Shown here one piece after another: positions 26,471 through 62,080 of a stretch of 64,000 bases of DNA. Below the pieces are notes generated by a model. That model ran no database searches. It was not told the origin of the DNA and saw only the letters and a program-made list of their open reading frames with translations. Source of the stretch: Paramacrobiotus metropolitanus (Eukaryota > Tardigrada > Eutardigrada > Parachela > Macrobiotidae); NCBI RefSeq assembly GCF_019649055.1, contig NW_026570245.1, positions 992,001-1,056,000 of the forward strand, given 5' to 3'. Both the position numbers and the translations under genes were made by a program. Position 1 is the first letter of the stretch; every line of letters starts with the position of its first letter.

Positions 26471-29247
26471 ATGCTGCTGTATTTGGGAATCATCGCTGCT
26501 GGTCTTCTCGCCTACCTGTTGCGCAAGTGGTTCTACTGCATCTGGGCGCGCTATGTTGTTAAATCGATCCCCGGTGGTCCCTTTCCCTTGCCCATTGTGG
26601 GAAATATTCTCGAGATCGACGGCAAAGCACCGTTCGAGTCCATGGAAAAATGGGCCCATCAGTACGGGAAACTTTTCACGATGATGATGGGCAGCGAGGT
26701 GGTTTTGGCCATTGCGGATTTGGATCTGCTGAAGAAGGCTTTCAAGGATGATCGCTTTTCCGGCAGGCCGGAGAATTTCTTTTTTGATATCTGGAGAAGC
26801 ATGGGGTATCCCTTAGGTGAAACTTCCAGAGTATCCTGATTTCTGAAATATCATTTTCCATCAAAAATCTATCAGTCGGCTGTTGTAGGCTTCGCGGGGT
26901 TGGATGGCGATGTCTGGAAGGAACATCGTCGATTTTCCATCCATGCTCTAAAAGATTTTGGTTGGTGTTACTGTCAGATGTCTCTATCGTTGCTTATCCA
27001 CCTTTCTTTTTCCGGTTGCAAAATCATTATGTTTCCGTGTCTTTAAATTTTCTATTGATCTTTTACACTTTTTTCTATTCTTGCCGATTTGCTATTTGGG
27101 TGTTTGCTTTTGAGCAAAAGTATTTTTCAGGATTTGGAAAATCTGCAGCGGAAGAGCAGATCCAAAAGGAGGCTGGCGAACTATTGAAAACACTCTTGGA
27201 CAGCGGTGGGCAGCCGATGGATAATCATATACCCTTTTCAACAGCGAGTAAGCATAGACCATATTTTTCAGCTGTCAATAATCACTGTAAGAGTACACTG
27301 AGTAGTTGCGTACTATGATTCCAAAAAAAAGTTTATGATTGTATAATAACAGTTTGCAGGTTTTGTTTTTTACCTTTGCAATTTTGCACTGTGCAATTTT
27401 GCACGTGCAGATAATTTCAGTTTAACTGCACAGTTTAAATGGAAATTAACATTTTTATGGTCAATTATGGATGAATCATTTAGCCGTACCGTTTATATTG
27501 TGAATTGTAATGTATCATATAATTCTGACCACACGTACAAGTGTCGTTTCCTAGCCTCCAATGTGACAGCTATTATGATGTTCGGCACTTCCTTCAGTTC
27601 TCAAGACAGCCGCTTCAACTACTTCATCGAAGCGGAATCGCAAAACTTTAAAGACTTCGCCAATATGTCGGTACTGGACATGATCCCCTGGGCTGTTCAC
27701 ATTCCGCCCTTTCGCAGCTGGGTTAAGAATTTACGGAAACGCATCGAAAAACAGCTGGAACTGTTGCATGAACTAATATCCGAGCACAAGCAATATTTTG
27801 ACCCACAGAATCCTCGTGATTACATTGATGCATTCTTCAACGAAAAGGACAAATCTGCAACATTTACCGGTAATTACAATCGACACAATGCATTTAGTAG
27901 ATATTTATTGATTTGCGAATGAATTTTGCTGGGAATGAGGTGTGATTAATTTATTTTGCAGATGGTCAACTTTTAAGCAACGTACAAGATTTATTTTCTG
28001 GTAAGGCCAACATTTCCTTATGATTGTGTGAAGTGCTCATTGTATCGTTCGTTATCTTGTAGTATCGTGCTTCATCTGGCTTCTCTCATATTTTTTCTTG
28101 TCCGTTTGTGAATTTTCTGCAAATTTGAATAACACTCCAAGTTCCCAACCTAACTTGAATGCTTTTCAGCGTCGTTTGAAACTACTGCTACATTTCTGCG
28201 TTGGGCCATGCTGCTGATGATCCATCATCCAGAGGCGCAAAGAAAGGTCCAGGAGGAAATCGATCGGGTTATTGGACGCTCCGGCTTGATTAAATCAAAT
28301 GACCGCTCCCGGTTGCCGTATACAGAAGCCACTATATTAGAGATATTTCGGTTTGCCAATTACATCCCATTTCTTCTGCCTCATAAAACGTTGGAGGATG
28401 TGCAGTTTGAAGGCTATACAATCAGAAAAGGTTAGCTATGGACGTTACACTTCTAGTTTGATGGGTAATCGGCTACTCTGGAGATGTACGTAAACTTTAA
28501 ATGTTTCAGGTTGTGTTGTTTTGTTGTTCATTGTTTTCGGTACTTAATTTTTTGCTGGTGTAGTCTGCACATAATCTGTTGGGTACTTATGCGCTCAATG
28601 GTTATTCTGTCATAGACACTACCATAATGGGACTCGGCTGGGTCATTAATCGCGATCCCGCCTTGTGGAAAAATCCGGAGGCGTTCATTCCAGAGCGGTT
28701 TCTGGATGACAAGGGAAATGTCAACCAGTCTACGGCATCGAACGTGATGATCTTTTCTACCGGTAGGAGGAGTTGTGTCCTGTCGGCTGTCCGCACAATA
28801 ACAGAGATCACCTAACTGATTCTGAAGATTTGGTGCTGTTTTGATGTCTGAACTCGCATTCATGTGTAGCTGGGCGTTGGAGACATATTATTATGTATAG
28901 AAGCACAAAGAAATGAATGTTAGCAACAAGGTTTTAATACAATGGACAATGTATTTGTGTTGTTTCAGGGAAACGCGTGTGTCCAGGCGAACCGCTAGCT
29001 CGCATTGAAACACTGTTATTCTTCGGATCCATCTTGCAGAAATTCAACATTACCGGAGAAGGCAGTGCTAAACCGTCTTTGAGTCGCGTTGATGGCTTAA
29101 GTAAGTGCTTCGGTTCTAGTTGATCAGCTACCGTTCCTAAGTTTTGCCAGTACATATAAAAAATCGGAATACATTTAGACTGTAATCGTTATCGTTTTAG
29201 CTTTGACTCCGGAACCATACCTGATGCGAGCCATTCCACGAAAATAA
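26471..29247 (+). CDS. cytochrome P450 A, clan 2 (CYP2-like)
   Basis: Nine exons (26471-26816, 26889-26960, 27131-27247, 27555-27869, 27962-28000, 28170-28430, 28616-28762, 28969-29100, 29201-29247) give 491 residues; all eight introns are in phase 1. An N-terminal signal anchor (YLGIIAAGLLAYLLRKWFY) is followed by the proline hinge PGGPFPLPIVGN, the C-helix WKEHRRFS, the I-helix ASFETTATFLRW (Gly of the usual AGxET replaced by Ser), the K-helix EIFR (ExxR) and the haem loop FSTGKRVCPGE with the ligand Cys. It should be an ER monooxygenase; the substrate is unknown. It is paralogous to P450 B at 42.5 kb. Confidence 0.92.
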
Positions 29248-39508: not shown

Positions 39509-41886
<2,378 letters not shown>

Positions 41887-42521
41887 ACGGTTAAATGACG
41901 ATCGGTTGAAATTCCGCAATGTGTTGGCTTTAATCTTAGAAGTTGCTTGTACAGTTGTACTTACCGGAGCGCACTTGTAACAGATTCTAAGCTTCTAATG
42001 TTTTTGCCATGTCGTTTCTTTTTTGTGTGAATAGTAGCGTGTCTGACTGCAATCTTTATTATCGCTTTATCTTCTACAATAATTACGACCACTGGAAATA
42101 TTGTAAAACATGTCCCGTTGTTAATAAATGCATGGTTATCACTTATCAGACGGTCACTATGCAGTATGCACTGAAGATCAAACAAAACAGTACAGCTGAG
42201 ATAAAGAACCAAGTTTTGCATCTTACAGGGCGAATTTTGTGAAATTATTCTTGTGAACAGAAAAAACTATGTAACCTTGTTAAAACTGTTTATTAAAAAA
42301 AATTGAACAAAACGTTAGGTGATGACTGCCGCCGAGTCAGATTAACATGGTGATGTCGCCGCTCGCCCGCACCAGGGGCAGACAAGAAGGTTAGCCTTGA
42401 CTTAGCAAACTAGCAGCGATTAAAAGTCCAATTTTAAAAATAAGTTTAACAGATTCAACTTATGGCTTGGCACTTTAACAGTCGAGTGTTCTTATTGTGC
42501 GATCTTTTGAATTGCTAGGAC
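41887..42521. other. H3 to P450 B intergenic region
   Basis: H3 3' UTR with AATAAA at 42123, then the P450 B promoter. A GC-richer segment around 42320-42390 has no recognised content. Confidence 0.4.
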
Positions 42522-45125
42522 ATGGTGTTAGTGTTGATTGTTGCGCTGTGCGCCCTGTACCTCCTGCTTCGCACGTGGCTGTATGTCCTGTGGAGTCGTG
42601 GAGTGGGAGAACTTCCCAAAGGGCCCTGGCCAGTTCCCTTTCTCGGTGACGGCTTGAAGATCGACGGTGCAGCACCATTCCGCACGATGGAAAAATGGGT
42701 TAAAGAATATGGCAAAGTGTACACCTTGTTATTTGGCCACAAGCTTATTCTGGTCATAGCGGATATAAATGTATTGAAGAAAGCTTTTCGCGACGATAAG
42801 TTTGCTGGGAGACCACGTGATACCTGGGCGCTGGTTTGGGACGCTACCAAGCTGCCTTTAGGTGACTTACCTTAACGATGCTGTGCAAGTCTGGGATGGT
42901 TCTTATTACTGTTTGCGTTCAGGGCTTGCGGAGTCCGAGGGATCGGTATGGAAGGAGCATCGACGTTTCTCGTTGCATGCTTTACGTGATTTTGGTAAGA
43001 CCGTAAGACCACCTGTTGCGTTCTGCTCTACTGCTCCGCGGTTGTAATTCTCGTACTAAAAATCATAAAATAATTTCTCTATGTTAATTTTATTATTTTT
43101 ATGTTATTACCAGTTCTTATGCGCGTTATAGAATTGATTAATTCAACATTCTGACTGTTTGCAGGAATTAGAGAAAATTTGTAAGATTTAACTTAAAAAC
43201 GAAAAGTGAAAGTGTTAGAATTTGTTTGGAACGTCTCTGAAGCATCCGCATGTATCACAATGGCATTTTACAGGTTTTGGCAAAGAAAGTGGCGAGTTGT
43301 ACATACGACAGGAGACCACAAAAATGTTGAAAATTCTCGAATCAAGCAATGGGCAGCCTATGGATAACAGTCTACTTTTTGCAACCGCTGGTAATAACTG
43401 TTCGCAGATTTTCGCGCTTGAGTGCAGCGGTTGAATGCTTCTTATGCAGTATGCTCCTGTACGGATTATGGTAATATCGATCAGTATAGGCCTATAGGGA
43501 TTTGTTTATCATTTGGCATTTGTATTCGACAGCATCCAATGTAGCAGCCTACATGATGTTCAGCGACACTTTCAACTCGGAAGATCCGCGCTTCATCCAT
43601 TATCTGCAAGATGTGGCACGTAATTTCCGAGAAATGCCCAACGCGGGAATTTTGGAGATCTTTCCATCGTTGAAATTCGTGCCGCCGTTTTCCTTTACAA
43701 TTTCCAAATTTCAAGCTCGTGTCAAGCAGCAAGTCACAGTATTACAAGATCTTGTTGAGGAACATAAAAAATCTTTCGATCCGGACCATCTTCGCGATTA
43801 TATTGACGCTTTTCTCGCTCTACAACAGAAAAATTCACCGACATTCACGGGTTTGTGAGATCTCCGGTTAAACTGTACTTAAACTGTTGCGAAGATCATT
43901 TTTCGCTTTGCAGATGGTCAGTTGATTGCTGATTTGACAGATCTTTTTGCCGGTAAATGTTAGCTAAGCGAACAGCTATACTGGTTATGTTTAAAGAAGT
44001 GCTAAAATCGCCTTCACCGCATCTCTTACTGCAGCTTCTATCGAGACAACCGCTACATATCTACGTTGGGCGATTCTGTTTGTCATTGCGTATCCTGGAG
44101 TTCAACGGAAAATTCAAGCGGAAATTGATGATGCTGTCGGACGTTCCAAACAGATTGTGTACGCTGATCGCACTCGTCTCCCGTTTACGGAAGCCACTCT
44201 TCTCGAAGTATTTCGCTTTTCTAATTTCGGGCCGTTCCTGTTACCACACAGAGCGTTAGAAGATGCACAATTTGAAGGCTATGAAATTCCTAAAGGTGAA
44301 ATTGCAAGCATACCGTAGAATTGTTGAGCCTACTATATTCTAAAGATAACGTCAACGTTCTGCAGAACATGTGACAGATCGTAATTAAATTACTTTTCTA
44401 TATACAGGAACAACCGTGTTGGGACTTGTGTGGGCAATTAACCGTGACCCCGATTTATGGGGAAATCCGAGTGAATTCCAGCCTGAAAGATTTCTTGATG
44501 ATTCTGGCCAAATCGATCAGCAAGCAACCGGAAATGTTCTTGCATTTTCTGTTGGTTAGTGCATTACGTTTAGCCAAATCGGCAGCTAAACTATTTTCCG
44601 AATTTTGAGTTATTTTGCATAAGGGCCATAAGGCGATTCTTGTAATATTGATTATGGGATCGTTGGTTTTGATTACACATGAGTTCTGCATTCGAATTTT
44701 AGGAAAAAGATCTTGTCCTGGTGAGCCCTTAGCCAAAATGGATTTGCTGATCTTTTTCGCCTCGCTTCTGCAACATTTCACAATCCGAAATGAAACGGAC
44801 GAAGTGCCTTCGCTGGAACCAGTTAATGGTTTAGGTCAGTGCCGAACAGTTTATCGAAAATAATTGTGGAATCTGCCACCATTATCACATAAGGAAACTG
44901 GTGATTGTCACCGATGTTTGGTTACCTAGAGTAATCGCATTATACATATATTCTTCAGGTAAATGTAGAATATGTACACAGTACAGATAACTGGAAAGTT
45001 TTTTTTCGTGTTTACGGAATATCGATGCGCTTTGTAATATGTTAGTTAACCGAAAGTTGCTTTTAACTTTTTTTACAGTGTTGACGCCTCCACCATATCA
45101 GATGAGAGTATTCCTCCGGAAGTAA
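42522..45125 (+). CDS. cytochrome P450 B, clan 2 (paralogue of P450 A)
   Basis: Nine exons (42522-42861, 42923-42994, 43274-43390, 43533-43850, 43914-43952, 44035-44295, 44408-44554, 44703-44834, 45079-45125) give 490 residues. All introns are in phase 1, and exons 2, 3 and 5-9 have exactly the lengths found in P450 A. Features: signal anchor ([20 protein letters not shown]), [11 protein letters not shown] hinge, WKEHRRFS, I-helix [12 protein letters not shown], ExxR in LLEVFRFS, haem loop [12 protein letters not shown]. The two P450s are separated by SGK3 and the histone cluster. Substrate unknown. Confidence 0.92.
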
Positions 45126-45865
45126 GGACAGGAAAACACCGTTTGTGAAACTTGGTACTTTAGCCATCCCAGGTCTTTTCGCTGATCTGTATTATAATGC
45201 AGCTAACGCAATGTTTTTGTGACCAAATGGACATTCGAGCAATGTAGTGACTGCTCTATGACCAAATCGTACAGACTTAACCGAATGTTTAATTATTTAA
45301 TAGCGCTCTCAAAAGCAGTGTTTCACGTACGTTCCCTGTGTATGTTCGCACGAAAGTTTTCGTTGTACCTGAAATGTGATAATCTCTTGCCGGTGCTAAA
45401 TTGTATTAAAGGTTGAGGGTTATGATAGTGATAAGAGCACATAATTTAGGGCTTACTTAGGTTAATGGTTTCTGGATATGACTTTTCAAATTGCCACAAT
45501 TTTTTTCGAGCGATATCTGATAAGTATTGCATTAATTACACGATAATCATAGCCAAAATTTTTGTTTTTTTTATTACGGTGATACTTACTCGGTATACAA
45601 ACACGAGCAAGTACGACTAGGGTAGTACAAGTTCACGTGGTTTCCATGGAAGTACTTACTACAGAGGCGCATAACAATCTATGTATTGTTATGCACTGGA
45701 TGTCAGTGGAGAAAATTATGAACTACCAGTTTTTAACCTTGAAATACTAACTAAATAGATTAAAGGATAACTCAGTATAGCTCTGCAGGGTACATTAATG
45801 TAGCACCCGGAGCCCCAATAGAAAACCGCCAAAAATATAAACGCTGTACTAATTCCTACTCGAGT
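45126..45865. other. intergenic, P450 B to WIPI
   Basis: Same-strand spacer. The short open frames within it have no recognised content. It should hold the WIPI promoter. Confidence 0.4.
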
Positions 45866-47305
45866 ATGGATCGGGGCGTGGCAGGAGGAGCCGCTTCCGC
45901 AGTCGGAGATCTGGACCGCGCTCAACATCCGCAGATCATCAGTTGTCGTTTTAGCCCAACCGGGTCATCATTATTGGCCACCACCCCGACGGGATTCATT
46001 ATCTACAATATTGACAAGGATGGAATCGCCACTTTGCACCATGAGTACGATGTGGGAACGCCGATCCGATTTGCCGAACGTCTCTACGCCACCAACCTCG
46101 TCGCGTATGCCACCGTGAAAAATCCCGATGTGTTTGTGGTATTCCATTGCAAAAAGCGGAAGATTATCTGCGACTTCCGCTACCCCAGCGATATCAATAT
46201 TATCCGTTTCAACCGGCAGCGAGTTGTTATTGCCATAAAAGACGTGGTAATTTGATCTGTGTTGCTTTTCTGGTTATTGCGCATGGAATTTACTTATCAG
46301 TAATAGTATATCTTTATACTTAGTTCGTGATATATAGAAATAGTGAAATAGGTAATTTGTTTTGTATAGAAATCGCAATACTTCTAAAATTTTTTCGGTT
46401 TTGGATTTTTGCTCACTGAAGCAGTTTTATTCGCTGTTTTTTTTCGGCAGATTTACATCCACAATGTCCGCAACATGCAGATCGTCCACTTGATTAAAGA
46501 TGCACCGGAGAATCCCCGCAACCTAATGGAATTAGCTGTCTCGGAAAACTGCGGCTACCTGGCATTTCCCGGCAAAATCGACAACGGCTCCCTACGCATC
46601 TTCGACGTCTTCCAGCTGCAGGACGTGACCTCCATCCAGGCCAGCACCACGCCGCTGACCAGCATCCGCTTCGATCCCACCGGCGCCCGCATCGCCACCG
46701 CCTCCATCAAAGGCACCTGCATCCGCGTGTACGACAGCCAGGCCGGGAATAAACTGTATGAATTCCGCCGCGGGATGCGGGAAGTGCGCATCGTCTCGTT
46801 GTCCTTCAGTTTAGACAGCCGTTTTCTCAGCGCCACCAGTGGATCGGAAACGGTGCATATTTTTAAACTGGCCGACCATGATGCGGCCGCATCCGAAGGC
46901 GGGGGATTTTTTGCCGCGGTGCGGGAGACGCTGGCGAGTGCCGCCGGGGGATTGTTGAGTTTAGAAGAACGGGCGGTGACCACCATACAGAATCCGCTGC
47001 ACGGACACAATGCGCAGGGATTTCTGGGGTCACTGGCACCGGGATGCACGCATTTTCTGTTGATGACGCCGACTGGACTGATGCATGTGTATGTTCTGCT
47101 GGAAAACACGGAGAGTGGTGCGACTGTGCTGTTGAAGCCCATTAAGCAGCAGAATTTGCGGGAAGTCAGGAAAGTTAACGGGAAGCCTTCCATTCTTAGC
47201 CAGGATTCGTCGGTGATTATGACCGGCGAACATTCGGGATGCGAGAATGAAAAGGCGGAGAAATCGCTGAACGCTTCTGTACGTAGTGTTAGTGAAGCGA
47301 GGTGA
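45866..47305 (+). CDS. WIPI2: WIPI/Atg18-family PROPPIN, WIPI2-like
   Basis: Two exons (45866-46246, 46451-47305) give 411 residues. The protein is a seven-bladed WD40-type propeller. The PI3P-binding motif FRRG lies at residues 232-235, preceded by CIRVYDSQAGNKLYE and followed by SLSFSLDSRFLSATSGSETVHIF. FRRG binds PI3P and PI(3,5)P2 on the phagophore; WIPI2 recruits ATG16L1 in autophagosome formation. An insert after blade 5-6 (EGGGFFAAVRETLASAAGG) corresponds to the membrane-inserting loop. The acidic-basic C-tail is not conserved. It is convergent with CYP51, 325 bp away. Confidence 0.92.
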
Positions 47306-47630: not shown

Positions 47631-50332
47631 TTACTGCTCCAGTCTTGGTTTATAAGAAATAATAGGATTCTTCGGAGTATGTATCATTGTCGAGTAGTTA
47701 ATTGCGGGGAAATGCCCGTTCACGAGATCAAATTCGTACTTCCTTAACAATGTCGCCCAAATCGTCTTGATCTGAACGTAAGCAAACTGTTCTCCAATAC
47801 AACGATGCCGGCCGGCGCCGAACGGAACATAAGAAAACTTCGTATCCCCCGTTAGGTCCGGATTCAAATACCTAATAAATGTCTTATAAGCAAAGCGAAC
47901 CTCCCAATCATATAAAAATACAGTAAAATCTTTCACACCTATCTGGATCGAAGGCATCTGGATTTTCCCATGCATCTTTGATCCGCTGGTTAACCGGTGG
48001 TGATACACAGATCTGGTGTCCGGCAGGTATCGTATATTCTTTCACGAACTGTCAAAATAAAGCGATGACATTTCTATCAATAATAGTACAACAGCCATTC
48101 CAACAATCCAAACGCTGTACACATTCACTTCCGCTGATTTTGGAATACCTGGTCAGTTTTGACCATTCGCATCATAGTCATGATAGGTGGACGCAACCGC
48201 AGCGTTTCTTTCACGCATCGATCCAAAATGTCCATATCGCGGATGTGCTCGTATGTCAGCGGTGTATGCAGATCACCACAAACCCGTTTCTGCTCTTCCA
48301 CGATAGCGTCCTGCCAAAACATGCTTATTCGTATAAAACCGAAATGTTCATTTCAGTTAGATTTCACTGTCAGTGTCATATGCGTTTTCACATGCATTTT
48401 CAAACGCATTTCAAGCTAAAATATAATATCAGCTGTGCATTTAAGATGGCCACTTGGCCGGTGCAGTGGAATTACGAATACAGTAATTAATATTGTACCT
48501 GTTGCATCTCCGCTGATAAAATTAATGAGTCACCTACCTGGGTTGCACAACACCTTTTCCAAAAGTCATAAGTCAGCGTAACTCCACTCAAATATTACGC
48601 ACATTCCATTGTCAATCGTAAAAGTTTTAAGTGTTGTTCGCACCTGCAATCGTTTATCTCGTGATATGTAGAACCCAAGCCAAGCACCAGTGGTCGAGGA
48701 CGTATGCTGCCCGGCCATCAGCAACCCGATGAGCATACCGGCAATTTCATCATCGCTGAGCTGCCTGCCATCTCTAACAAAACAGTGAAAATTGAAATCC
48801 CAATAAATACGTCAGATATACTTAATCTATTTTCGACGCATGCGTTATCGAGCTGTACTTGTAAGCAGAATCAATCAGCGTCTGCAGCATATCGTCTGGT
48901 TTCTCTGGGGCCATGCGGCGTTTGGCAATGGCCTGATAGAAAATCTGTTTCATTTTCTTATGCGCGATATCCCGCCGCCGGAAGCTGGGCAGGGGCAGCC
49001 AGGATGGTAGTAACCAGGCTTCGTGCGAAAAGCCTCCATCTAAATCAGCGTACAGCTGTGCGACTTCTTCATTCAGCACAGAACGGATCTCCTGGCCATG
49101 CAGACAGCGACTGGCAGTCAGCACGATCAATTCCGCCATGGCTTCGAAGAGATTGCGGACACCACGATCGCCCCAACGCGCAAAATAGTCCTCCGTTTCC
49201 TCAACGAGCAGCGGGACGTGAGTGCGGAATTGTGCGATGTTCAAGCCGGTTTTGAACATCTTTTTCTGTTCCAGAAACACCTAAAGCATAACCAAGTAGC
49301 AATTAGCAAACCTAACAAAAACTACCGCACATTTCGAAGAACAATTATTAATACACAACGAAACCATGTTTTAGACTTTTAGGTACACAGTAAAATTCCA
49401 AGACTTATTTATACAGTGCAGTTTTTATTTTCTGATGCGCATATTCGGCAAATTAATACAAATGAGAAAATATTTTATCAGTAATCAAGCCAATAACGCC
49501 ATTTTAAAACACTAAAACGATCACACACGAACGGAACAAAATTATGATTGTACAGTAAAGCAATTTCCGAAATTTTGTAAAACAAAGCAAATTATGTACA
49601 ACAAACAATTATGTACAACATACAACTTGTTTGTTGTACATAATTTGCGGTACATAGTTATTGCTTAGTCGTACATAACCTGTCGTACACAATTTCGGAC
49701 AAACAGTTTGTCCGACACGTTTTAAAATTTTTTTTTGTTTTTTGAGCTTACACTATTGGGGCAATCATAGGCTACTCCCTGACCAAACACGGGTGTCACT
49801 AGCTTGCTGTACACTTCTTCGGCGTTGAGATCTTCGTTCTTGCTGTTAAAGAACACAGCACTGGCCTCCGATCCGATAACATAAGTAAACGTACTGCCCA
49901 TCATCCGCAAACTGAACACGGGTCCGTACTAAAAAACGTAACAACGCAGATGCAGCAGCCGTACGCATCATTCAGCATCTAAACTTTCCATAGTATTGCA
50001 TTTCGTTCCGAAAATACGATTACTTTGTAATAAGCATCTTCCAGGAATTTGATGGGATTCATGCCAAACTGCAATGCACTGCCAACGAAAGGAATGGAGG
50101 AGGGAATCATCGGCGGCGGGTTCTACATCCCCAAAGAATGCGGAGTTGTGATACATCTGCTCCCAGTTCTGTAGAATACATGGGAATTTTCAAATACCTT
50201 CACCGACGATCTCCATCGCATACGAAGGAAGTACGCGATTGTCAGAAAAGCAATGGAAAGATAGGTGAGTGTGTATTTGCGATTGCAGCATGAGAATGCA
50301 TCGCCAAATCGCTCCCAGAACAAATCAATCAT
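47631..50332 (-). CDS. CYP51: sterol 14-alpha-demethylase (CYP51)
   Basis: Eight exons: 50198-50332, 50024-50122, 49752-49928, 48859-49280, 48644-48773, 48149-48310, 47939-48048, 47631-47871; 491 residues (human 503). The N-terminus has a membrane span ([13 protein letters not shown]). The CYP51-specific SRS1 segment ([20 protein letters not shown]), [18 protein letters not shown]-helix [20 protein letters not shown], and the haem loop [17 protein letters not shown] are nearly as in the human enzyme. CYP51 oxidises the 14-alpha methyl of lanosterol or a similar sterol in the ER. The gene is head-to-head with an oxidosqualene cyclase whose product would be its substrate. Insects and nematodes lack this enzyme. 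The fold and substrate-site conservation make other P450 families very unlikely. Confidence 0.96.
49587..49648. repeat. perfect 22-bp inverted repeat in a CYP51 intron
   Basis: Arms 49587-49608 and 49627-49648 are exact reverse complements around an 18-bp spacer, within the 471-bp intron before exon 4. A transcript could form a strong hairpin. ATTATGTACAAC recurs in the left arm and loop. Confidence 0.85.
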
Positions 50333-52823
50333 CTTGTAAGCTCCTGTTCCCCTGCTCTAAACAGCACAACAAATATAAAAAAATAGATTGACAAAGTAGG
50401 CAAAAGTTGAAAGCCGATATATGATGCAGTATGCGAATGTTTCGCAAAGAAACTCAGCGAATTCAAAGTCCAGACAAAGTCGCAAACAGCTGATCTGAAT
50501 CCTATTCTATGCGTCCAATCAAACGAGCATCGATTATCATCGCAGTATTAGAGTACCAGTGGCTATGTTCTATGGCTATGTTCTGTTGAATCAAGTTGAG
50601 GGTATGCCAGAGTAGTACATATCCAGTATTTGTTTGATTTGTTTTAGTTTATCACGTAACAAAGTTAAGAACATTTTCAAAAATTAATTAATGCAGTTAA
50701 GTCTTTCCTCACGCGAAGTGCACGACCGTTTATTCAACTTGGTAATCGCCAGACTCGGCCAGAGTCACCGGAAGTGGCAGCAGACCGCTCGGCACTGGCG
50801 CCGCTTCTTGTGATTGCCCTACTAAACGTTTTAGTTTTATTAAATACGAGTAGTATTTAATAAATATTATATTTTTATCCAGGCTTAGGCAGGTCTTGGC
50901 ATACAGTTCGAGCGGTACGACTATTATCATATTATTATACGAGGTACCTTCATCATTCAGGGCCAATCTCTCTTTTATTTTTCGAAAATTAAACCGACGG
51001 TTGTAACTTGTAAGTGTTCCAGCATATAATTATAGTTCTATTGCAAACGAAGCCTGATAATGATTCGCGATAAAAACAATGCATTAAGCACATTCTGTTA
51101 AGATTCTTATTAGTTTGCAATATTGCCAGTTTGGCAGTGTACAGACGATCGTAATTCTTTGTTTCGACTTTTTGTTCATTTTTTATTGTTTCTTCTTTTG
51201 TCAACGGAAGACTCAGATATGCCGGTGAATTGTCGTTCGTACAATACTCACGGCGATATTCTGTTGAATTCATAAGCACAAAAGAAAGATGCTCTCGATA
51301 ACGAAAAAAGAGTCCATGGAACTTTGTACATGCTCAATGCAATAATATATAATGTCACTCAGCTAGATTAATATTTATTAATCCACAAAATTAATATTTT
51401 ACCACCGAAAATACAGCAAATTTAAGAGACAAACTACTTCCTGACCGCACACTTCTACATATATGCGCGCTCCATGTACGTTGACATTGCACTTGAATGA
51501 GGGTCTTATCACTCTTATGCGATAAAATTTTCTAACCACAAGATATACCGAAATTACAGAAAACGCTGCATGCAATATGAACATCCAGCTACAAACACAA
51601 ATAAAATTCTAAATATACAATACTCTTTAAGACACGGGTTTAATTGTAGCCGGCTTGCCCAGTTTTAGCCGTATTAACCGAGAGACTGCGGTACAAGGTT
51701 CGCACGGGGTTGAACAGCAGTAGTCGGTTTTGACCAGATGCCCTTTGAGGGTCAACATTAATCATGTCGTCTTTCGATCGAGCGTCAACGGCTTCGTCCC
51801 TGGATGTGGCCTTATCGGGGCTGCAGTAGTAGAGTTGAATTTAGTTTGTGGTACACCAAAATTGAGCTAGATAACGTCATGTCAATATCGATTACTAATT
51901 ATATTATTTAATAAGCAGATGTAGAAAGTGTACATACGCGTAGACAACCAGTACATACGCGTAACTGAATTCCCATATTGTTCGCAGCACGTAATTGTAG
52001 AACAATATCATAACAATGCCGGAAAGGTACAAACACCAATCCATCAACGCATAGGCAATGTGAAAACCATAGCCAAATTTTTGTATTCGCTCCACCGATT
52101 CGGAGGATATCCAAGGCCGCGGAGAACGCGAATGGAGAAACCGCTTTGGGAATACAGAGGTCATCATTTTAAACAGAGAGCTATGAAATATTTCGGTAGA
52201 AAAATTAGATTATTTTAATTAGTATTAAGACTTTGGTAGAACTAGTATTAAGACTTTAGTAAAACTGTTGTACTGTAATTGCTAGTACTTCTGTTCAGCC
52301 AGTTGCAAATAACATGCTCAACCGCTCACCCTTAAACCACGAATAACCAATTAAAGACACTACAGTGTCCATTTATATATTATACGAGTATACAGATATA
52401 ATATATTGTATATTCTTTTACATAGGTGTAAGAAGTCTTCATTTGTAGACCAGACGGTTTTCTGGCAGTACTATGTTATCAGCAGCGATTGGTTAATAGG
52501 CATATTCGTACAATACCGCCATCGTGTAGCACCGGCGTGAAGTCCATCAACTGGTGTTCCGCTATTCCTATATATACAATACGTAGGTCACCAACACACC
52601 TTTGGACGATGGCGTGAGTAGGGCTGGTCATGAATTCTGGTGCAAAGGTCAACCTGTACAATTAATTGCAGCTCTTGCGGTGACATGGAATAGCTACGAT
52701 AACGTTTATTTGAAGGCTGCAAGAGATACGGTTTGTGTCACTTCGTAATCAGTTTCTGCAACCTTTTTGGAATTTTTCATTGAGAAGCTTCTACGGTTGT
52801 AAATTTTAGTATCTTTTGTGAAG
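50333..52823. promoter_or_regulatory. 2.5-kb divergent interval between CYP51 and OSC1
   Basis: Contains the promoters of CYP51 (-) and OSC1 (+). Coding-like minus-strand exons inside it are listed separately. I looked for a sterol-regulatory element (TCACNCCAC) and saw no good match. Confidence 0.45.
50730..52167 (-). CDS. possible small membrane-protein gene(s), exon structure unresolved
   Basis: Three minus-strand segments look coding. (1) From ATG 52167 to about 51950: about 70 residues, with HIAYALMDWCLYLSGIVMIL as a likely membrane span after an Arg/Ser/Pro-rich start. (2) 51640-51820, after an acceptor TACTGCAG: about 60 residues, hydrophilic (DEAVDARSKDDMINVDPQ), ending in GQAGYN-stop. 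(3) 50730-50818, after an acceptor GTTTAGTAG: QEAAPVPSGLLPLPVTLAES, ending in YQVE-stop. A hydrophobic segment WMFILHAAFSVIS near 51560 may be another exon. The phases of (1) and (2) do not join simply, so one or two genes may be present. No family is recognised. The position between CYP51 and OSC1 makes it worth resolving. Confidence 0.35.
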
Positions 52824-55800
52824 ATGAGTAATACGTTTACTTATCAAAATAGTTTGCCTCGTAATCGTGGTGGACCGTACAAAACAACACCTGCGACGGA
52901 TCTCAGCCGCTGGCGTTTGACGAATGTCGGTGGACGGCAGACGTGGAGATATTACGAAGAGAACGAGGAATTACCACGAGAGCAGACGTTTTTGGAGAAG
53001 CATTCACTAGGGCTGATGGTACGGGACAAGCGCATGCTTAATCCAATTTCCTAAATAATATTACACGTCAATACCTACATACGTCTAAGTGACCGGTCTA
53101 ACATCTATTTAGAAAGTTGGACCAAATGTAATTTATATAGCGAAAGTACACGGCACTGTAATCGGTACACGCTATTATTACGAGTAGTAAAGATAAAAAA
53201 ATTAATCTTGGTCTTTACGACTAGAGCGCAGCCGGTGCTTTTTTGGAACAAACATATTGTGATGCAGTACTGTAATTAATTATATAGTTCCCGCCTTCGG
53301 CAGCTTGTTGTGTACTTTTAAGTAATAACCGTACCAATCTGGCTTTGTTATCGATTTTAAGGATGATGAAGAATTTGTGGACACTCCAGAAAACATTTAC
53401 GATGCACTGCAAAAAGGGATGGAATTCTACGCTCAGTTGCAAGCGGAAGACGGACACTGGGCCGGTGATTACGGTGGACCGTTGTTTCTGCTACCGGGAT
53501 TAGTTATTGTGTGCTACATAACCGGCACACCGTTCTCGGAAGCACAGAAAAAGGAGATTATCCGCTACCTGCGCTCTGTGCAGTGCCCAGGTGGAGGATG
53601 GGGGTACGTAATCTAACTGCAGCCTACAAAACAGGACACCAGCTGAAGGATTACAATCTTTAAAAACGGCGTAATAAAATAATTTATTCCACGACGGTTT
53701 CTTTATATTTTAAAAGTGCACCAGGTATTGTTGTGAGAGTCTTTCTGCTGGTTGAATGTAGCGGCGCGTCTATTGTTTAACTGATATATGATTTGATTGC
53801 ACTGCGCGTACAGGTAAGTATTTAAAAAAATTTAACTAATCCCTTTACTTTTGTTCAGGCTGCATGTGGAAGGACCACCCACCGTATTCGGCTGCGCTCT
53901 GAACTACTGCACAATGCGCATTTTGGGAGTTGCTGCGGATGACCCGGATGTTACGCATGCCCGAAAACTTTTGCATACATTGGGTAATAATCACAGTGCA
54001 ACGCAGTAAATCTGTTTTTCAAACACTTCTATTGGTAGCATTTGGATGTTACTGCACTGATGCTCTTAAAGCTGGTATTACTATGGTCAAATGACGGTTA
54101 ATCTGTTCGTAATTTTTCTCAACATTAGGAGCACTGGCCATTCCATCGTGGGGAAAATTCTGGCTGTCGGTGTTGAATGTATACGACTACGACGGGATGC
54201 ACAGCATATTCCCGGAGATGTGGCTGCTTCCGGAATGGGTACCCATTCACCCATCGAAGTTGTGGTGTCACTGCCGACAAGTGTACCTTCCGATGGGATA
54301 CTGCTACGGACGCCGGTTGAAGGCAGCGGAAACGGATTTGGTGCGACAGCTGCGGCAAGAGCTGTACGTGGAGGATTATTCCACCATTCAGTGGAAAGCG
54401 CATCGGGATAATATATCGCCGGCTGACCTTTATACGCCACACAGTTGGCTTCTCAAGATTGGTTACGGTAGGTGTTGCATCGTAGACGGCAATTTTGTAT
54501 AAACTTTTGTTTAGGTGCACAGCGTCCGGACTATTTGGTACACTCGTTGAATGTTTTCGGTTATTTTAGTTGTTCTGGATTTTTGTGAGAAGTGGCATAT
54601 ACCAACCTTTCGGAAGAAAGCTCTGGATAAATGTTATGATCACGTGTGCGCAGATGATGTATTCACAAAGTGTATCAGCATTGGACCGGTATGCCACTGT
54701 CCTGCACTATATGAATGCATTTCGCATAGACGTTAAAGTTTGCTGCATCTCGATAGTTAAATAATATATTTTACAGATTTCAAAGGTGATCAACATGTTA
54801 ATCCGATGGTCAGTGGACGGTCCAAGCCATCCGGCATTTAAAATGCACCAGGATCGAGTGCAAGATTATTTGTGGCTGGGCCTGGATGGGATGAAAATGA
54901 GCGGGACGAACGGCTCACAATTGTGGGACACCGCGTTTGTTGTACAAGCTTTTTTGGAGGTACTTCATTTCTGTTTTTTCTTTATCGCCGGTAGATTTCG
55001 ATATTACTCTCTTTACAAATTTTTCAATTATGTAAGAATTTGTCGTCTCAAATTTTTCAATTATGTAAGAATTTGTCGTCTGTCTTATTGCTGCAATTTT
55101 AAACCGATTACAGGCTCGAGCTGCGGAAAATCCGGCACTCGTACCGAATCTCGTTCGCGCCTACGAGTTCATCGACTTTTCTCAAATTCCCGAAAGCCCT
55201 GCAGATTGCGTTGCGTTCTACCGACATCCTAACAAAGTATGCAACCCTAAGATCGACAAACATAACAACATCCAGTTGTGAATTACTGTAATTAACACAT
55301 CTGTGACTCAGTTATACGAGAAGCAGAAACCTTTTCATGACTAGAGTAATCGCTAACCATAGTGCTTTATATACGCAGTTATTTAATTATGCTATTGTAA
55401 TAATAAAATGATTTTGAAGGGTGGTTGGCCATTTTCCACACTGGATTGTGGATGGATTGTAGCAGACTGCACAGCGGAAGGTTTGAAAGGTATCCTATAT
55501 TTGGAGAAGGAGGCCAGTTTAAAAAAGTCCATCTCCACTTTCTCTTCTGAAAGGTTACGAAATGCCGTGGATGCGGTTAGTTGAAATGTCGTCTGCTCGT
55601 TGAATATTACTTATAAGACACAAATCTCGCTAACAATTGATCTGTTTTAGCTTATATCGTTTACAAATGAGGATGGCGGATTCGCGACATATGAAACCAA
55701 ACGCGGTGGCCACTTACTGGAACTGCTAAATCCATCGGAAGTCTTCGGGGATATCATGATCGACTACACTTACACGGAATGTACATCGGCAGTTATGCAG

Positions 55801-56969
55801 GCACTCATCGCGTATCGCAAGAGAGATCCAGAGTATCGTGCAGAAGAAATCAGGCAATTAAAACACAGTAGTTCATATAATTATGTGATCGTAATTATAA
55901 TTTTGTATTGCGTAAGGTCAATCTGATTTCGAAAGAACTAGTCGAATAAAACAATCGCCAAGTACGGCTGTTTTTTTACCGTATTATCATAAACTTTGTT
56001 ACTGACTTCCCGACGACCAACACACCTGTAAGTCACTGAGTGATGTTCATGACCTTTGCGCTATTGCAGATTGATTCTCAGTAACGGTTTGGAATACATC
56101 CAGCGGAAACAACTACCGGACGGATCGTGGGAGGGCAGTTGGGGCGTGTGTTTCACCTATGGCGCATGGTTCGCCCTCGAGGCCTTTGCTAGCATGGATT
56201 ACTTGTACAAAATTCAATCCAGTGATGGGTACGGATGCTTATACCGCTTTACATCAACGCGATTATCGCTTGGTTGTTAGAATTTTTACGGCTTTCCCGG
56301 GACAAATACCGGTCACTTATAATATCAGCGAAAACTGCGCAATGCGAAAACAGTTTGAGTTCAGCAAGAGTACAAGAGTACTGGTTTTGCAGAGGCCAAA
56401 ACGAAGCCGTTCTAAAGGGCTGTATTTTCCTGAAACAGTACCAGAACGACGACGGGGGATGGGGCGAAGATTTCGAGTCCTGTGAACAGCGACGATACGT
56501 TCCTAGCGCAGCATCGCAGGTGGTCAACACTTGCTGGGCATTATTGGGACTAATGGCTGTACAGTAAGTCACTATGAAATTATATCAATCCCTAACTATA
56601 CGCAGCACAGATACACATAATTATGTGCGTGAGAAATTTATCATTGAAATACCATGCGTGTATTTGTACGTTATATTATATATTACACGCAAAACTAAGG
56701 AACTTCTTATAAAAAAAACAGTTAATTAATTAAGTACGATAATGGTAAATACTAATTGCACTAATTACAGATATTCGGACAGATCAGTCGTGGAGAAGGG
56801 TATCAAGTTTATATTGAGTCGACAACGGAAGAATGGTGACTGGCCGCAGGAAAACATTAGCGGTGTATTCAACAAATCTTGTGCGATTAGTTACACTAGC
56901 TACCGCAACGTGTTTCCCATATGGACTTTAGGTCGCTTTGCGTACCATTACCATCCATCTGCGCAGTGA
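52824..56969 (+). CDS. LSS: oxidosqualene cyclase 1, lanosterol synthase type
   Basis: Twelve exons: 52824-53018, 53362-53603, 53859-53983, 54129-54467, 54570-54688, 54777-54959, 55114-55236, 55420-55575, 55651-55853, 56070-56228, 56393-56563, 56771-56969; 737 residues (human LSS 732). QW repeats such as [39 protein letters not shown] and KNGDWPQEN are present. The acid motif DCTAE has its catalytic Asp at residue 458; LWCHCRQ holds the His near the active site; ECTSAVMQA supplies the Cys that hydrogen-bonds the Asp. The residues that set product specificity (Thr in GTNGSQLWD; Cys and Val in [13 protein letters not shown]) match animal and fungal lanosterol synthases. It cyclises 2,3-oxidosqualene to lanosterol on the ER. 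Intron 9 starts with GC (CAG/GCAATT) instead of GT. Confidence 0.95.
54165..54412 (+). repeat. exon-4 tract identical between OSC1 and OSC2 (OSC1 copy)
   Basis: 248 bp with no difference by eye to 59078-59325 in OSC2, including third codon positions. Flanking exon sequence differs. Confidence 0.9.
55016..55081. repeat. 33-bp tandem duplication in OSC1 intron 6
   Basis: Two perfect adjacent copies, 55016-55048 and 55049-55081, starting CAAATTTTTCAATTATGTAA. Without coding effect. Confidence 0.9.
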
Positions 56970-57850
56970 CAATGAATTTAATTTCTTGTAAATTTTCCTG
57001 TTGTTTGGTTTTGTTTCGTTATCAAGATTCTCACCGGTCGCTTCATGTAGCTCAAGCATAATATCGCGAACCAATTAAATGATCATTTGCGCCAGAATGT
57101 CGTTAAGGGAAAACATATTCTGTGCTACAGTAGCACTTATTGGGTATATGAAAAATTTTCATTCCATCGCGTGACATAATATGCACAATTTTCTTGTATA
57201 TCAAATATCTTGAACTGTAATTCATTTCATTTCAAATACATATTTGAATATTTGAATATTTATTTGAATGCATATTTGAATATTCATACTGACAAATCAC
57301 ATGCACACTTGCGCAAACGGTAGTGCTTGCTATTGTCCTTGCAATTTTAATTGCTGTTTTGCAGGTAAGAAAATACAAGTTTACCGTTAGGTCAAGTTTC
57401 AAAATTATATATCGGATTTTGTAGTACACCAGACGGGCTTATCACTTACTACGTGTTCTGCGGCGCATAACTATCGAGGAGATAGGAGTACAGAGTAGAA
57501 AGCTGTCCAACTGGTAGCAAAAGATCCGACTAAATTTACTTTCTATTCCCCGAAGCTAAATCAGAATGTTTGTCCCTTTCGTTGTCACTCATGCTTTGCT
57601 ACTCATTTCTTAAAATTGTTAGCCCGTTGCAATGGCGAGTCTGGATCTTGTAAATAATATTGAACATCGTGACAGTATCTTAATTTTATTGCTATTTTGC
57701 ACGCTGCCCGCTTATCATTAGACCATTCGGATTTTACGACAAATTTGTAAATTGTTGTGAATAGCGTGGCACCATTATTATTACCTAACCTTGTGAATAT
57801 TTATAACAAATCGAAATCCCAAGTTTTCTGAATTTTATCATTTATGTATT
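56970..57850. other. intergenic, OSC1 to OSC2
   Basis: AT-rich. Around 57236-57284 the word ATTTGAATATT is repeated imperfectly. Should hold the OSC2 promoter. No exon seen. Confidence 0.45.
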
Positions 57851-60800
57851 ATGGATGGGTTTTCTGGTCAAAACAATCTCCGTAATTGTGGCGGAAACAA
57901 CAGCGCACCGGCTTCAACCGATCCCAGACGCTGGCGTTTGATCTGCGACTCCGGACGACATACATGGAGATATTATGAACAACTTGAGAAGCTGCCTAGG
58001 GAGCAAAATTTTTTGGAACAACATGCGCTGGGACTGACTATAACTGTAGGTATCGGAGTTATTCCTGATTTCTAGCCGGGCTGTAACATCCTGAAAATGC
58101 GGTATACATATATGACTGGCCGCCGTTAGCATATAAATGATTCAGTTACCCTCTAGCTTTCTTGAAATAAAATTCATCGGCAGTATAATCTGAAACTCTT
58201 TATTCCATTATTATCTTTGGACGTTGGTGCGTATGTAAATTGCCATTTAAACGATTATGACAGTTACCAGTTAGAAATACACTGAAGATAAAATAAGTAA
58301 CGAAACATATAACAAAGATGTGTGCGAAATTGCTTATGTCGATTAAATATTATAGTGTGTAATTCAACGTATCTGTGATGATTGTCGTCTACAGAAAGAT
58401 GCTGATGAGAAATGTAATGGCAGAGCGAATACTGCTGAAAATGCCCTTCAAAGAGGAATGACGTTTTACGCAAATCTACAAGCGGAAGATGGACATTGGC
58501 CGAGTGATTACAGCGGGCCTCTTTTTCTTATTCCGGTGCTGCTTATTGCTTGTTATGTAACAAATACCTCCATTTCCGATGCTCAAAGGAAAGAGATGGT
58601 TCGGTATTTGCGTTCCGCGCAACGTGTGGATGGTGGATGGGGGTAATCATATTCAAGCTAAGGCGTTCGAATGCGCGCCACTGCAGTTTTGGCGACAGGC
58701 AAGCATACGTTAGACTATCCCGTTTTCTTATCAGGCTTTACATCGAAGGACCGGGAACAGTATTCGGAACCACCTTTAATTACTGTGCTATGCGCATTTT
58801 GGGCATTGGTGGTAATGATCCTGATTTGGTTCGGGCCAGGAAATATTTGCACCGGTTAGGTAGGGTGGAAAATCGACTTTGTGTGTTTACGTTATAATAT
58901 ACGAGTAAATCTTAACGAAGCATGGATTGCAAGTACGGGAAAAAATTATTAATGACATATATGGATATACTGTGTTAAAATGTTTAGCATGCTAGACATT
59001 TAAATTTTTTAACAGACTGCGCAGTCTTTGATTTTTAGGAGGAGCATTGACCATTCCATCGTGGGGCAAGTTCTGGTTGTCGGTGTTGAATGTATACGAC
59101 TACGACGGGATGCACAGCATATTCCCGGAGATGTGGCTGCTTCCGGAATGGGTACCCATTCACCCATCGAAGTTGTGGTGTCACTGCCGACAAGTGTACC
59201 TTCCGATGGGATACTGCTACGGACGCCGGTTGAAGGCAGCGGAAACGGATTTGGTGCGACAGCTGCGGCAAGAGCTGTACGTGGAGGATTATTCCACCAT
59301 TCAGTGGAAAGCGCATCGGGATAATGTATCGCCAGCGGACCTTTACACACCCCACAGCTGGCTTCTAAAACTGGCATACGGTACAATGTACATACATTCA
59401 CGCATACTATTACGACCACGAAGAATTGTTTTATTTCAAGAACAGTGAATTCTTTATCAGTTCATACAGGAAGGTATATGCAGTGTTGTATGGATGAATA
59501 TGCACTATTGTATGTTTAGTTATCTATGATTATACGCGCTGTTGTACGTTTAGTTTTCTTGGACTATTACGAAAAGTGGCACATACCGTTTATCCGAGAA
59601 AAAGCTTTGGGAAGGTGCTACGACAACATTTGCGCCGATGACGAGTTCACTAACTTCATCAATATTGGCGCGGTACATCGTTCTAAGAAGGATGAAAATT
59701 TTATGAAACTTTCCTCGATAAATTCAAACACATATAAAATGCTTTTAACGAATATCTTATAGGTCACCAAAGGCCTGAATATGCTTGTGCGATGGTCAGT
59801 TGATGGCCCCCAGCACCCGGCTTTCCAAATGCACCAGGAACGCATTAGCGATTACCTGTGGCTTGGTTCGAATGGGATGAGAGTCAATGGAACCGATGGC
59901 TCACAGCTTTGGGATACCGTCTTCTCAGTTCAGGCATTCCTGGAAGTGGGTAGCTATAGCAGCAACTAAAACGCTGGTGCTGGAAAACTGCATATCACCC
60001 TGTATCATATGTACATTTTTTTATCTGCCAGGCTGGAGCCGCCAAAGACACAGCTTTTCTTCCTGTACTTCGTCGCGCCTACGAATTTATAAAATCTTCC
60101 CAAATACGCGAAGATCCTCCAAACTACACGGTATATTATCGTCAGTCTTGTAAAGTAAGTACTTCGTATACAGATCTGTACTTGCTCATCATAATGCAAC
60201 AGTTGCCGCTGTCAGGCATAATGTGGCTATCGATAATATGTTGAATACCTACAGTTTAATAACTTTGTGAAAAATAATTTATAATTAAAAAAATCAAATG
60301 AACTTATGGCATTCTAAGCAGTAGAAAGGAATACGCTACTACTTCCAAAGGAACGAGAATTCGAGAAGATAACTCTTTAGGTAATTAAGATATTTTTTGT
60401 AGCCGTTTATTTTAAGCAATCATAACGAATCACGTTTTACTGCGCAGAAATTAATTAATAAAAAAGAATGCAGCATATACTAATACTTACGAAGTAGTTC
60501 AGTTAGTTTTCTGCAGTATGGCTGGACATTTACGACACGGGATGGCGGTTGGATGACCCCTGACTGCACAGCAGAAGCCGTAAAAAGCCTCCTGTGTCTA
60601 GAACACGGTCCGGAAAGCATTGAACCAATTCCCGTGGAAAGGTTACATGGTTCCGTCAATTTGGTGCGTTGGCATTGCACCGATGTGCCGCACCGTGCAT
60701 AAAAAATACACTTAATTAAGCTCCACCACGAATATATCTGAAGTATTTCCGATTTTATCTCCCATAGATTTTGTCAGGAGGTACAGACTGTAGCAGTTGT

Positions 60801-62080
60801 ATTTTTGTTTCAGCTTATATCGCTGCAAAACAAGAGTGGAGGATTCTCCAGTTATGAAAAGCAGCGCGGAGGTCACCTTTTGGAGTTGCTGAATCCGTCG
60901 GAAATCTTTGGCGATATTATGATTGATTATTCGTACATAGAATGTACGTCTGCAGTTTTACAAGCAGTCAACTTGTACCAGAAAACTTATCCTACTTACC
61001 GAGCAAGTGAAATTCGGTATGAACTATGCTTTATAATTATGAACTTTTATAAAAGTACTCTGTATGTATTGACCATTCGTCTAGTGTTACGAGCCGAGCA
61101 TGCGTGTTTTGTAAGCGATCGTTTTTATTTCATGGAAAAAAATGAAACTTTTAACAGTCTAAACAACAATTTTGTATTCGCATGCGCTGCTCTGTGTTAG
61201 AGTAGTGCATACAGATCTGATTGTGGAAATTATACGTTGGACCAAACAGCTTTACTAAAGGTTCAATATCTATATATAAAAATGCGTCACGCGCTGGTCG
61301 TTCAAATTCTAACTGTTCTAAGTGCTTGGTTGTTTTAGTGAAATTATGCATCGCGGATTAAATTTCATAAGAAGAGAACAACGTGAAGACGGATCCTGGG
61401 AAGGTCGTTGGGGCGTGTGTTTTACATACGGCACGTGGTGGGCGCTGGAAGCTTTGGCTTGTATGGGATACCACTATAATACGGTCAAGTACGATGGCGA
61501 AAATTGTAGACAATATAAATTTTAGCTATTATTAATTACACTATGTCTCTGCATTTTCCAGTCAAAGTGAATCAGTGCGCAAAGCTTGTAGCTTCCTTAA
61601 AAATTACCAAAACGACGATGGCGGTTGGGGTGAAGACTTTGAATCCTGCAAACAGCGGAGATACATCCGTAGTCCAACATCGCATGTAATCAGTACATGT
61701 TGGGCATTATTGGGTTTAATGGCTGTCCAGTACGTTCGACTGATTTGTTTAATAATTAACTGGTGCTTTGTCACTAACACACTATCGGGTGTGCTTATAT
61801 ACACTAACGGTACCTTTATATACAGTACCCTGCCACAAGCGTTTTTCATCTCAACAATACCTTGGATTGCAGGTACCCGGAAGTGTCCATCGTGGAAAAA
61901 GGAATAAGGTTTATTGTCAGTCGCCAGTTAGAAAATGGCGACTGGCCACAGGAAGCAGTTAGCGGTGTGTTTAATAAGTCTTGTGCCATTAACTACGCCA
62001 ATTACCGGAATATTTTTCCAATTTGGACACTCGGTCGTTTTATTGCGCGCTATGGTCAGAATTTTCTTTATTATACATAA
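57851..62080 (+). CDS. oxidosqualene cyclase 2, divergent tandem paralogue
   Basis: Twelve exons in the same positions and phases as OSC1: 57851-58045, 58395-58642, 58735-58859, 59039-59380, 59554-59672, 59763-59945, 60032-60154, 60517-60663, 60814-61016, 61339-61488, 61562-61729, 61873-62080; 736 residues. All open, with canonical GT-AG splice sites. The catalytic DCTAE Asp is residue 461; [15 protein letters not shown] and the QW repeats are kept, so it should be an active cyclase. The segment before the acid is changed: [13 protein letters not shown], against [13 protein letters not shown] in OSC1. Thus Cys to Gly and Val to Thr at two specificity positions, and Pro next to the catalytic Asp. 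The Thr of GTDGSQLWD is kept. The C-terminus is different and longer ([11 protein letters not shown]). It may form a product other than lanosterol. Confidence 0.93.
59078..59325 (+). repeat. exon-4 tract identical between OSC1 and OSC2 (OSC2 copy)
   Basis: Partner of 54165-54412; encodes the segment from [10 protein letters not shown] through [13 protein letters not shown] to WKAHRDN. Confidence 0.9.

Follow-up and report, generated by a model that had tools for sequence, protein, structure and literature searches.

Does a CYP51 gene that stands beside two oxidosqualene cyclase (OSC) genes in a tardigrade reflect retained sterol synthesis, a specialised triterpene pathway, or mere coincidence of position? 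To our knowledge, insects and nematodes, the best-known Ecdysozoa, are unable to make sterols, and because tardigrades sit inside this same group, their sterol genes help date the losses of sterol synthesis in Ecdysozoa. We analysed such a locus in the eutardigrade Paramacrobiotus metropolitanus, within a 64,000-base stretch (the window, positions 992001-1056000) of a 1.33 Mb contig (C25).

Gene models of CYP51 and the two oxidosqualene cyclases

The gene models bore out the original prediction of a full-length, intact CYP51 and two adjacent OSCs: each model was identical to a public protein or contained one whole, and none had an internal stop (Table 1). The predicted outer coordinates (47631 and 62080) were correct, the start codons of CYP51 and OSC-A faced opposite ways in the head-to-head order proposed, and the two cyclases lay adjacent on one strand, as claimed for a tandem duplication. 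The introns of the three genes were GT-AG, with a GC donor after OSC-A exon 9 as the sole exception; after OSC-B exon 10, the public model and ours agreed on a GT donor at 61489. We extended OSC-B at its N-terminus by 86 residues, covering exon 1 and 21 residues at the start of exon 2, on the basis of homology to OSC-A, which exon 1 matched at 58% over 57860-58036; the public model starts inside exon 2.

Table 1. Features of the CYP51-OSC locus (window coordinates)
Feature	Coordinates	Strand	Description
CYP51 (lanosterol 14-alpha demethylase)	47631..50332	minus	8 exons, 491 aa; model identical to public protein P0121
CYP51 exons	50332-50198, 50122-50024, 49928-49752, 49280-48859, 48773-48644, 48310-48149, 48048-47939, 47871-47631	minus	
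Stretch between divergent CYP51 and OSC-A start codons	50333..52823	.	2,491 bases, from gene models
OSC-A (lanosterol synthase-like oxidosqualene cyclase)	52824..56969	plus	12 exons, 737 aa; identical to public protein P0001
Conversion tract, OSC-A exon 4	54127..54426	plus	97% over 300 bases; 54165-54412 identical to OSC-B
OSC-B (diverged tandem copy)	57851..62080	plus	12 exons, 736 aa; contains public model P0051 (650 aa) whole
Conversion tract, OSC-B exon 4	59040..59339	plus	97% over 300 bases; 59078-59325 identical to OSC-A

CYP51 carried the Pfam p450 domain, and every top PDB match was a lanosterol or sterol 14-alpha demethylase by name, including 8YQO (727 bits over residues 44-486, obtained with an earlier model that departed from the final one in a few residues around one splice junction), which places it at full length in the CYP51 family. 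Among the matches listed, protein matches were likewise named lanosterol 14-alpha demethylase, and the closest named relative outside the species by identity was Hypsibius CYP51 (74%). Judged by its sequence, CYP51 looks like an ordinary sterol demethylase.

OSC-A showed the OSC family fold and the DCTAE catalytic motif, with H232, D455, C456 and Y503 retained. The N and C domains of SQHop_cyclase (Pfam) were present in OSC-A and, as found on P0051, in OSC-B. Both copies matched the lanosterol synthase structure 1W6K, OSC-A at 1042 bits and OSC-B at 984 bits (the latter with an earlier model, a few residues different at one splice junction). The closest named relative of OSC-A outside the species by identity was the Ramazzottius OSC (69%, among the matches listed). 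When the 169.8 Mb assembly was searched for the N-terminal OSC domain, 6 candidates were scored and 2 matched, both inside the window. A fish record (P0003, Pangasianodon gigas, 825 aa) matched OSC-A with 1202 bits (61% over 78%), above the expectation from identity, and among the OSC-B matches it outscored Ramazzottius in bits (57% over 78% of the query, against 59% over 99%); this record is possibly a mis-joined model.

The stretch between the divergent start codons is a possible shared promoter region of CYP51 and OSC-A. SREBP-like sites (TCACNCCAC, at most 1 mismatch) were dropped as a sign of co-regulation, since their count over the whole window was no better than chance (33 observed, 33.7 expected), and an Rfam scan of the window gave no match. 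OSC-A intron 6 held a 33-base tandem repeat in two exact copies (55016-55081). On the plus strand upstream lay two P450 genes (26471-29108 and 42522-44860; mutually about 40-62% per exon), which we take to be CYP2-like from their motifs; the first exon of the second matched Pfam p450. A PROPPIN (WIPI-like) beta-propeller gene (45764-47305, plus; Pfam match on 46388-47305) was situated between this second P450 gene and CYP51, and a histone H3-like gene with one intron was read by eye at about 41240-41890 (plus).

Divergence and gene conversion of OSC-B

Comparison of the two cyclases revealed a difference-free run of 248 bases in exon 4, whereas coding identity outside the tract was 64.8% of bases over 630 codons; exon 4 of the two copies has therefore been recently homogenised by gene conversion, in either direction. 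The intron just upstream was unrelated between the copies, and because the introns flanking the tract are unrelated, the tract is not a duplicated stretch of the assembly. Outside the tract, third codon positions differed in 57% of codons and second positions in 19%, indicating that OSC-B is under purifying selection; a dS estimate for the same region failed, as expected at saturation.

In a tree of 19 rows built with the converted tract removed, OSC-A, OSC-B and the Ramazzottius OSC formed a clade with 99/99 support, in which the branch of OSC-B was long (1.05, compared with 0.41 for OSC-A). On the age of the duplication, the grouping of OSC-A with Ramazzottius received just 57/22 support, and a constraint joining OSC-A and OSC-B was not rejected (p-AU 0.48). 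Of 227 alignment columns without variation among 28 other lanosterol synthases (LSSs) of animals, OSC-B broke 31, OSC-A 9 and Ramazzottius 3, the leave-one-out values for the 28 enzymes being 0 to 8.

OSC-B was the same as the reference at 24 of the 29 positions checked, including H232, F444, D455, C456 and Y503. It was changed at 337, 338, 339, 453 and 502, of which 338 and 502 vary in other LSSs too. Because the checked catalytic residues are kept, OSC-B has probably remained active as an oxidosqualene cyclase. Around presumed active-site positions, its changes were enriched within 1 residue (11/29 changed versus 32/162 unchanged columns, p 0.05), a weak and distance-dependent signal (p 1.0, 0.08 and 0.15 within 0, 2 and 3 residues). 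Thr at human position 453 occurred in 1 of the 132 listed OSC matches with an exact DCTAE motif, namely OSC-B alone (2 of 134 matches, without the exact motif, were left out). We took human 453 to be plant position 481, counting from the catalytic Asp in the plant motif. According to PMC6423090, I481V separates lanosterol from cycloartenol in plant OSCs, and Thr453, counted as plant 481, is thus an argument for a changed product of OSC-B. Position F444, decisive in sea cucumber OSCs according to passages of PMC9236903, is unchanged, which argues instead that OSC-B still makes lanosterol. An altered product is one plausible outcome for OSC-B.

We regard it as possible, though somewhat doubtful, that OSC-B is a second LSS with an unchanged product, either redundant or in slow decay. 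The retention of H232, D455, C456, Y503 and F444 is consistent with such a gene, and gene conversion with OSC-A, in whichever direction, would fit a shared function. Against decay, at a coding identity of about 65% the sequence has acquired neither a stop nor a frameshift, and its codon positions bear the pattern of purifying selection. The fast evolution of OSC-B, its Thr453 and the recent conversion of exon 4 are what is new here, and the diverged copy bears on whether animals outside echinoderms evolved new triterpenes.

The sterol pathway and probable LSS-CYP51 linkage across animals

Retained sterol synthesis, one of the two readings first proposed for the locus, was supported by further genes of the pathway found in the assembly. 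Pfam searches followed by reading of the frames by eye, with presumptive subfamily labels assigned on motifs, found genes for squalene epoxidase, a C14-reductase of the LBR/TM7SF2 type, EBP, and DHCR7-like, MSMO1-like, SC5D-like and NSDHL-like proteins. With LSS and CYP51 included, genes for 10 of the 12 steps that begin with squalene synthase were recognisable; HSD17B7 lay outside the search, and DHCR24 was not recognised, its expected motifs occurring in none of the 8 loci read among 24 FAD_binding_4 matches in the assembly. A search of the assembly for sterol C24-methyltransferase, run without a positive control, gave no Sterol_MT_C match. Two different squalene synthase-like frames were seen on separate contigs (L024 on C48, L025 on C33). 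At the squalene epoxidase locus (contig C100), one exon was present in a second copy 55 kb away (L004 and L005) with an identical 97-residue open frame; the gene has thus undergone a recent partial duplication. Our literature search on tardigrade sterol biosynthesis returned no title about tardigrade sterol genes. Retention of these genes is already in print, PMC9451535 stating, with reference to Zhang et al. 2019, that tardigrades keep the sterol gene set.

The linkage was compared by eye in species named in both match lists (the best 120 of thousands of matches, one representative per cluster, and so a partial sample), with equal contig size read as a shared contig. Among the matches listed, LSS and CYP51 were on equal-sized contigs in four of six invertebrates besides the window: Lingula anatina (both 271,973 bases), Lineus longissimus (both 16,534,156 bases), and Ptychodera flava (both 45,584,913 bases) and Glandiceps talaboti (both 29,028,597 bases), two hemichordates that are not independent of each other. 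In Aplysia californica and Biomphalaria glabrata the contigs were not equal-sized. One of the 12 vertebrates listed, Electrophorus electricus, had equal-sized contigs, and 11 did not (Polyodon, Rhinoderma, Xenopus laevis, Pleurodeles, Festucalex, Anolis, Vicugna, Hyperolius, Betta, Eublepharis and Sarcophilus). Neither a Hypsibius OSC nor a Ramazzottius CYP51 was among the 120 matches listed. A thin literature search on animal OSC-CYP51 clustering or synteny gave, by title, only plant papers, and the original prediction knew of no linkage in animals. That view gives way to the shared contigs of Lingula, Lineus, Ptychodera and Glandiceps and to PMC9236903, whose text and a figure legend place CYP51 close to the OSC genes in echinoderm genomes.

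It is rather unlikely, in our estimation, that the adjacency arose by chance in a compact genome and that coincidence at chromosome level accounts for the contigs shared in other animals. Of the four such contigs, three are of whole-chromosome size, and Electrophorus shares a contig too, as chance would allow; the Lingula contig, which alone bounds the LSS-CYP51 distance tightly, is merely 272 kb, and the echinoderm adjacency in the figure legend also speaks against coincidence. Furthermore, the other pathway genes located in the assembly sit on contigs other than C25, so a neighbourhood of pathway genes is not general. LSS-CYP51 linkage is therefore probably an old, ancestral bilaterian arrangement, and probably not unique to Paramacrobiotus. 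If conserved, it would be a rare lasting linkage of two same-pathway enzymes in animals. Much of the surprise of the locus is gone, because sterol genes had been reported from tardigrades before and the closeness of LSS and CYP51 probably dates far back in animals; its remaining interest lies in the likely ancestral linkage and in a second OSC that is diverging and converting.

Interpretation of the locus and comparison with known systems

We consider it probable that the locus combines an old animal LSS-CYP51 neighbourhood with a tandem LSS duplication, whose product OSC-B evolves fast under purifying selection, has been converted and is probably active. On homology and conserved residues, OSC-A would turn 2,3-oxidosqualene into lanosterol, from which CYP51 would strip the 14-alpha-methyl group, the two serving housekeeping sterol synthesis as neighbouring steps of the cholesterol pathway with their genes side by side. 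A tandem duplication of LSS in the tardigrade line would have given rise to OSC-B, which has since evolved fast under purifying selection and was recently homogenised with OSC-A in part of exon 4.

A specialised triterpene cluster, with OSC-B producing a triterpene alcohol other than lanosterol for oxidation by CYP51 or by the pair of CYP2-like P450s nearby, appears unlikely. The long branch of OSC-B, its 31 broken invariant columns, Thr453 and the two P450 genes upstream are in its favour. It is opposed by the unchanged F444 and the 24 unchanged positions, the weak enrichment beside the active site, and a CYP51 resembling an ordinary sterol demethylase; the same linkage also occurs in animals for which we know of no triterpene production. 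Of the observations, the divergence of OSC-B alone points towards a plant-like cluster for the triterpene pathway originally suggested. We hold improbable, too, a mixed history in which the LSS-CYP51 pair was kept since early bilaterians and OSC-B, with Thr453, became a new non-lanosterol triterpene alcohol cyclase in the Paramacrobiotus line, independently of sea cucumbers, its exon 4 kept alike by conversion. The predicted animal origin of the genes holds: contamination, which would have undone the prediction, is excluded, and an assembly artefact is highly improbable. For the P. metropolitanus assembly, PMC11191345 gives a BUSCO completeness of 72.9% and notes uneven coverage on some scaffolds, but the genes have introns and lie on a contig of more than a megabase, the closest other named relatives of OSC-A and CYP51 by identity among the matches listed are tardigrade, the tardigrade OSC clade is firmly supported, and the unrelated introns around the conversion tract speak against an artefact.

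Returning to the preferred reading of an old neighbourhood with a duplicated LSS, OSC-A resembles animal lanosterol synthase (LSS/ERG7), being 61-67% identical to many of the matches listed with the checked catalytic residues kept, whereas OSC-B differs from it by tandem origin, long branch and Thr at 453. Plant OSC-P450 triterpene clusters, such as that for avenacin, share with the locus an OSC adjoining a CYP51-family gene. These plant clusters use a recruited CYP51 paralogue, whereas the Paramacrobiotus CYP51 would be the sterol demethylase itself, and tailoring genes were not shown. Another parallel is the sea cucumber tandem OSC pair, described in passages of PMC9236903 as parkeol and lanostadienol synthases: there, as here, an animal LSS was duplicated in tandem and one or both copies diverged. 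According to the same passages, sea cucumbers lost LSS function and CYP51 and changed position 444, whereas Paramacrobiotus keeps an LSS-like copy, CYP51 and F444.
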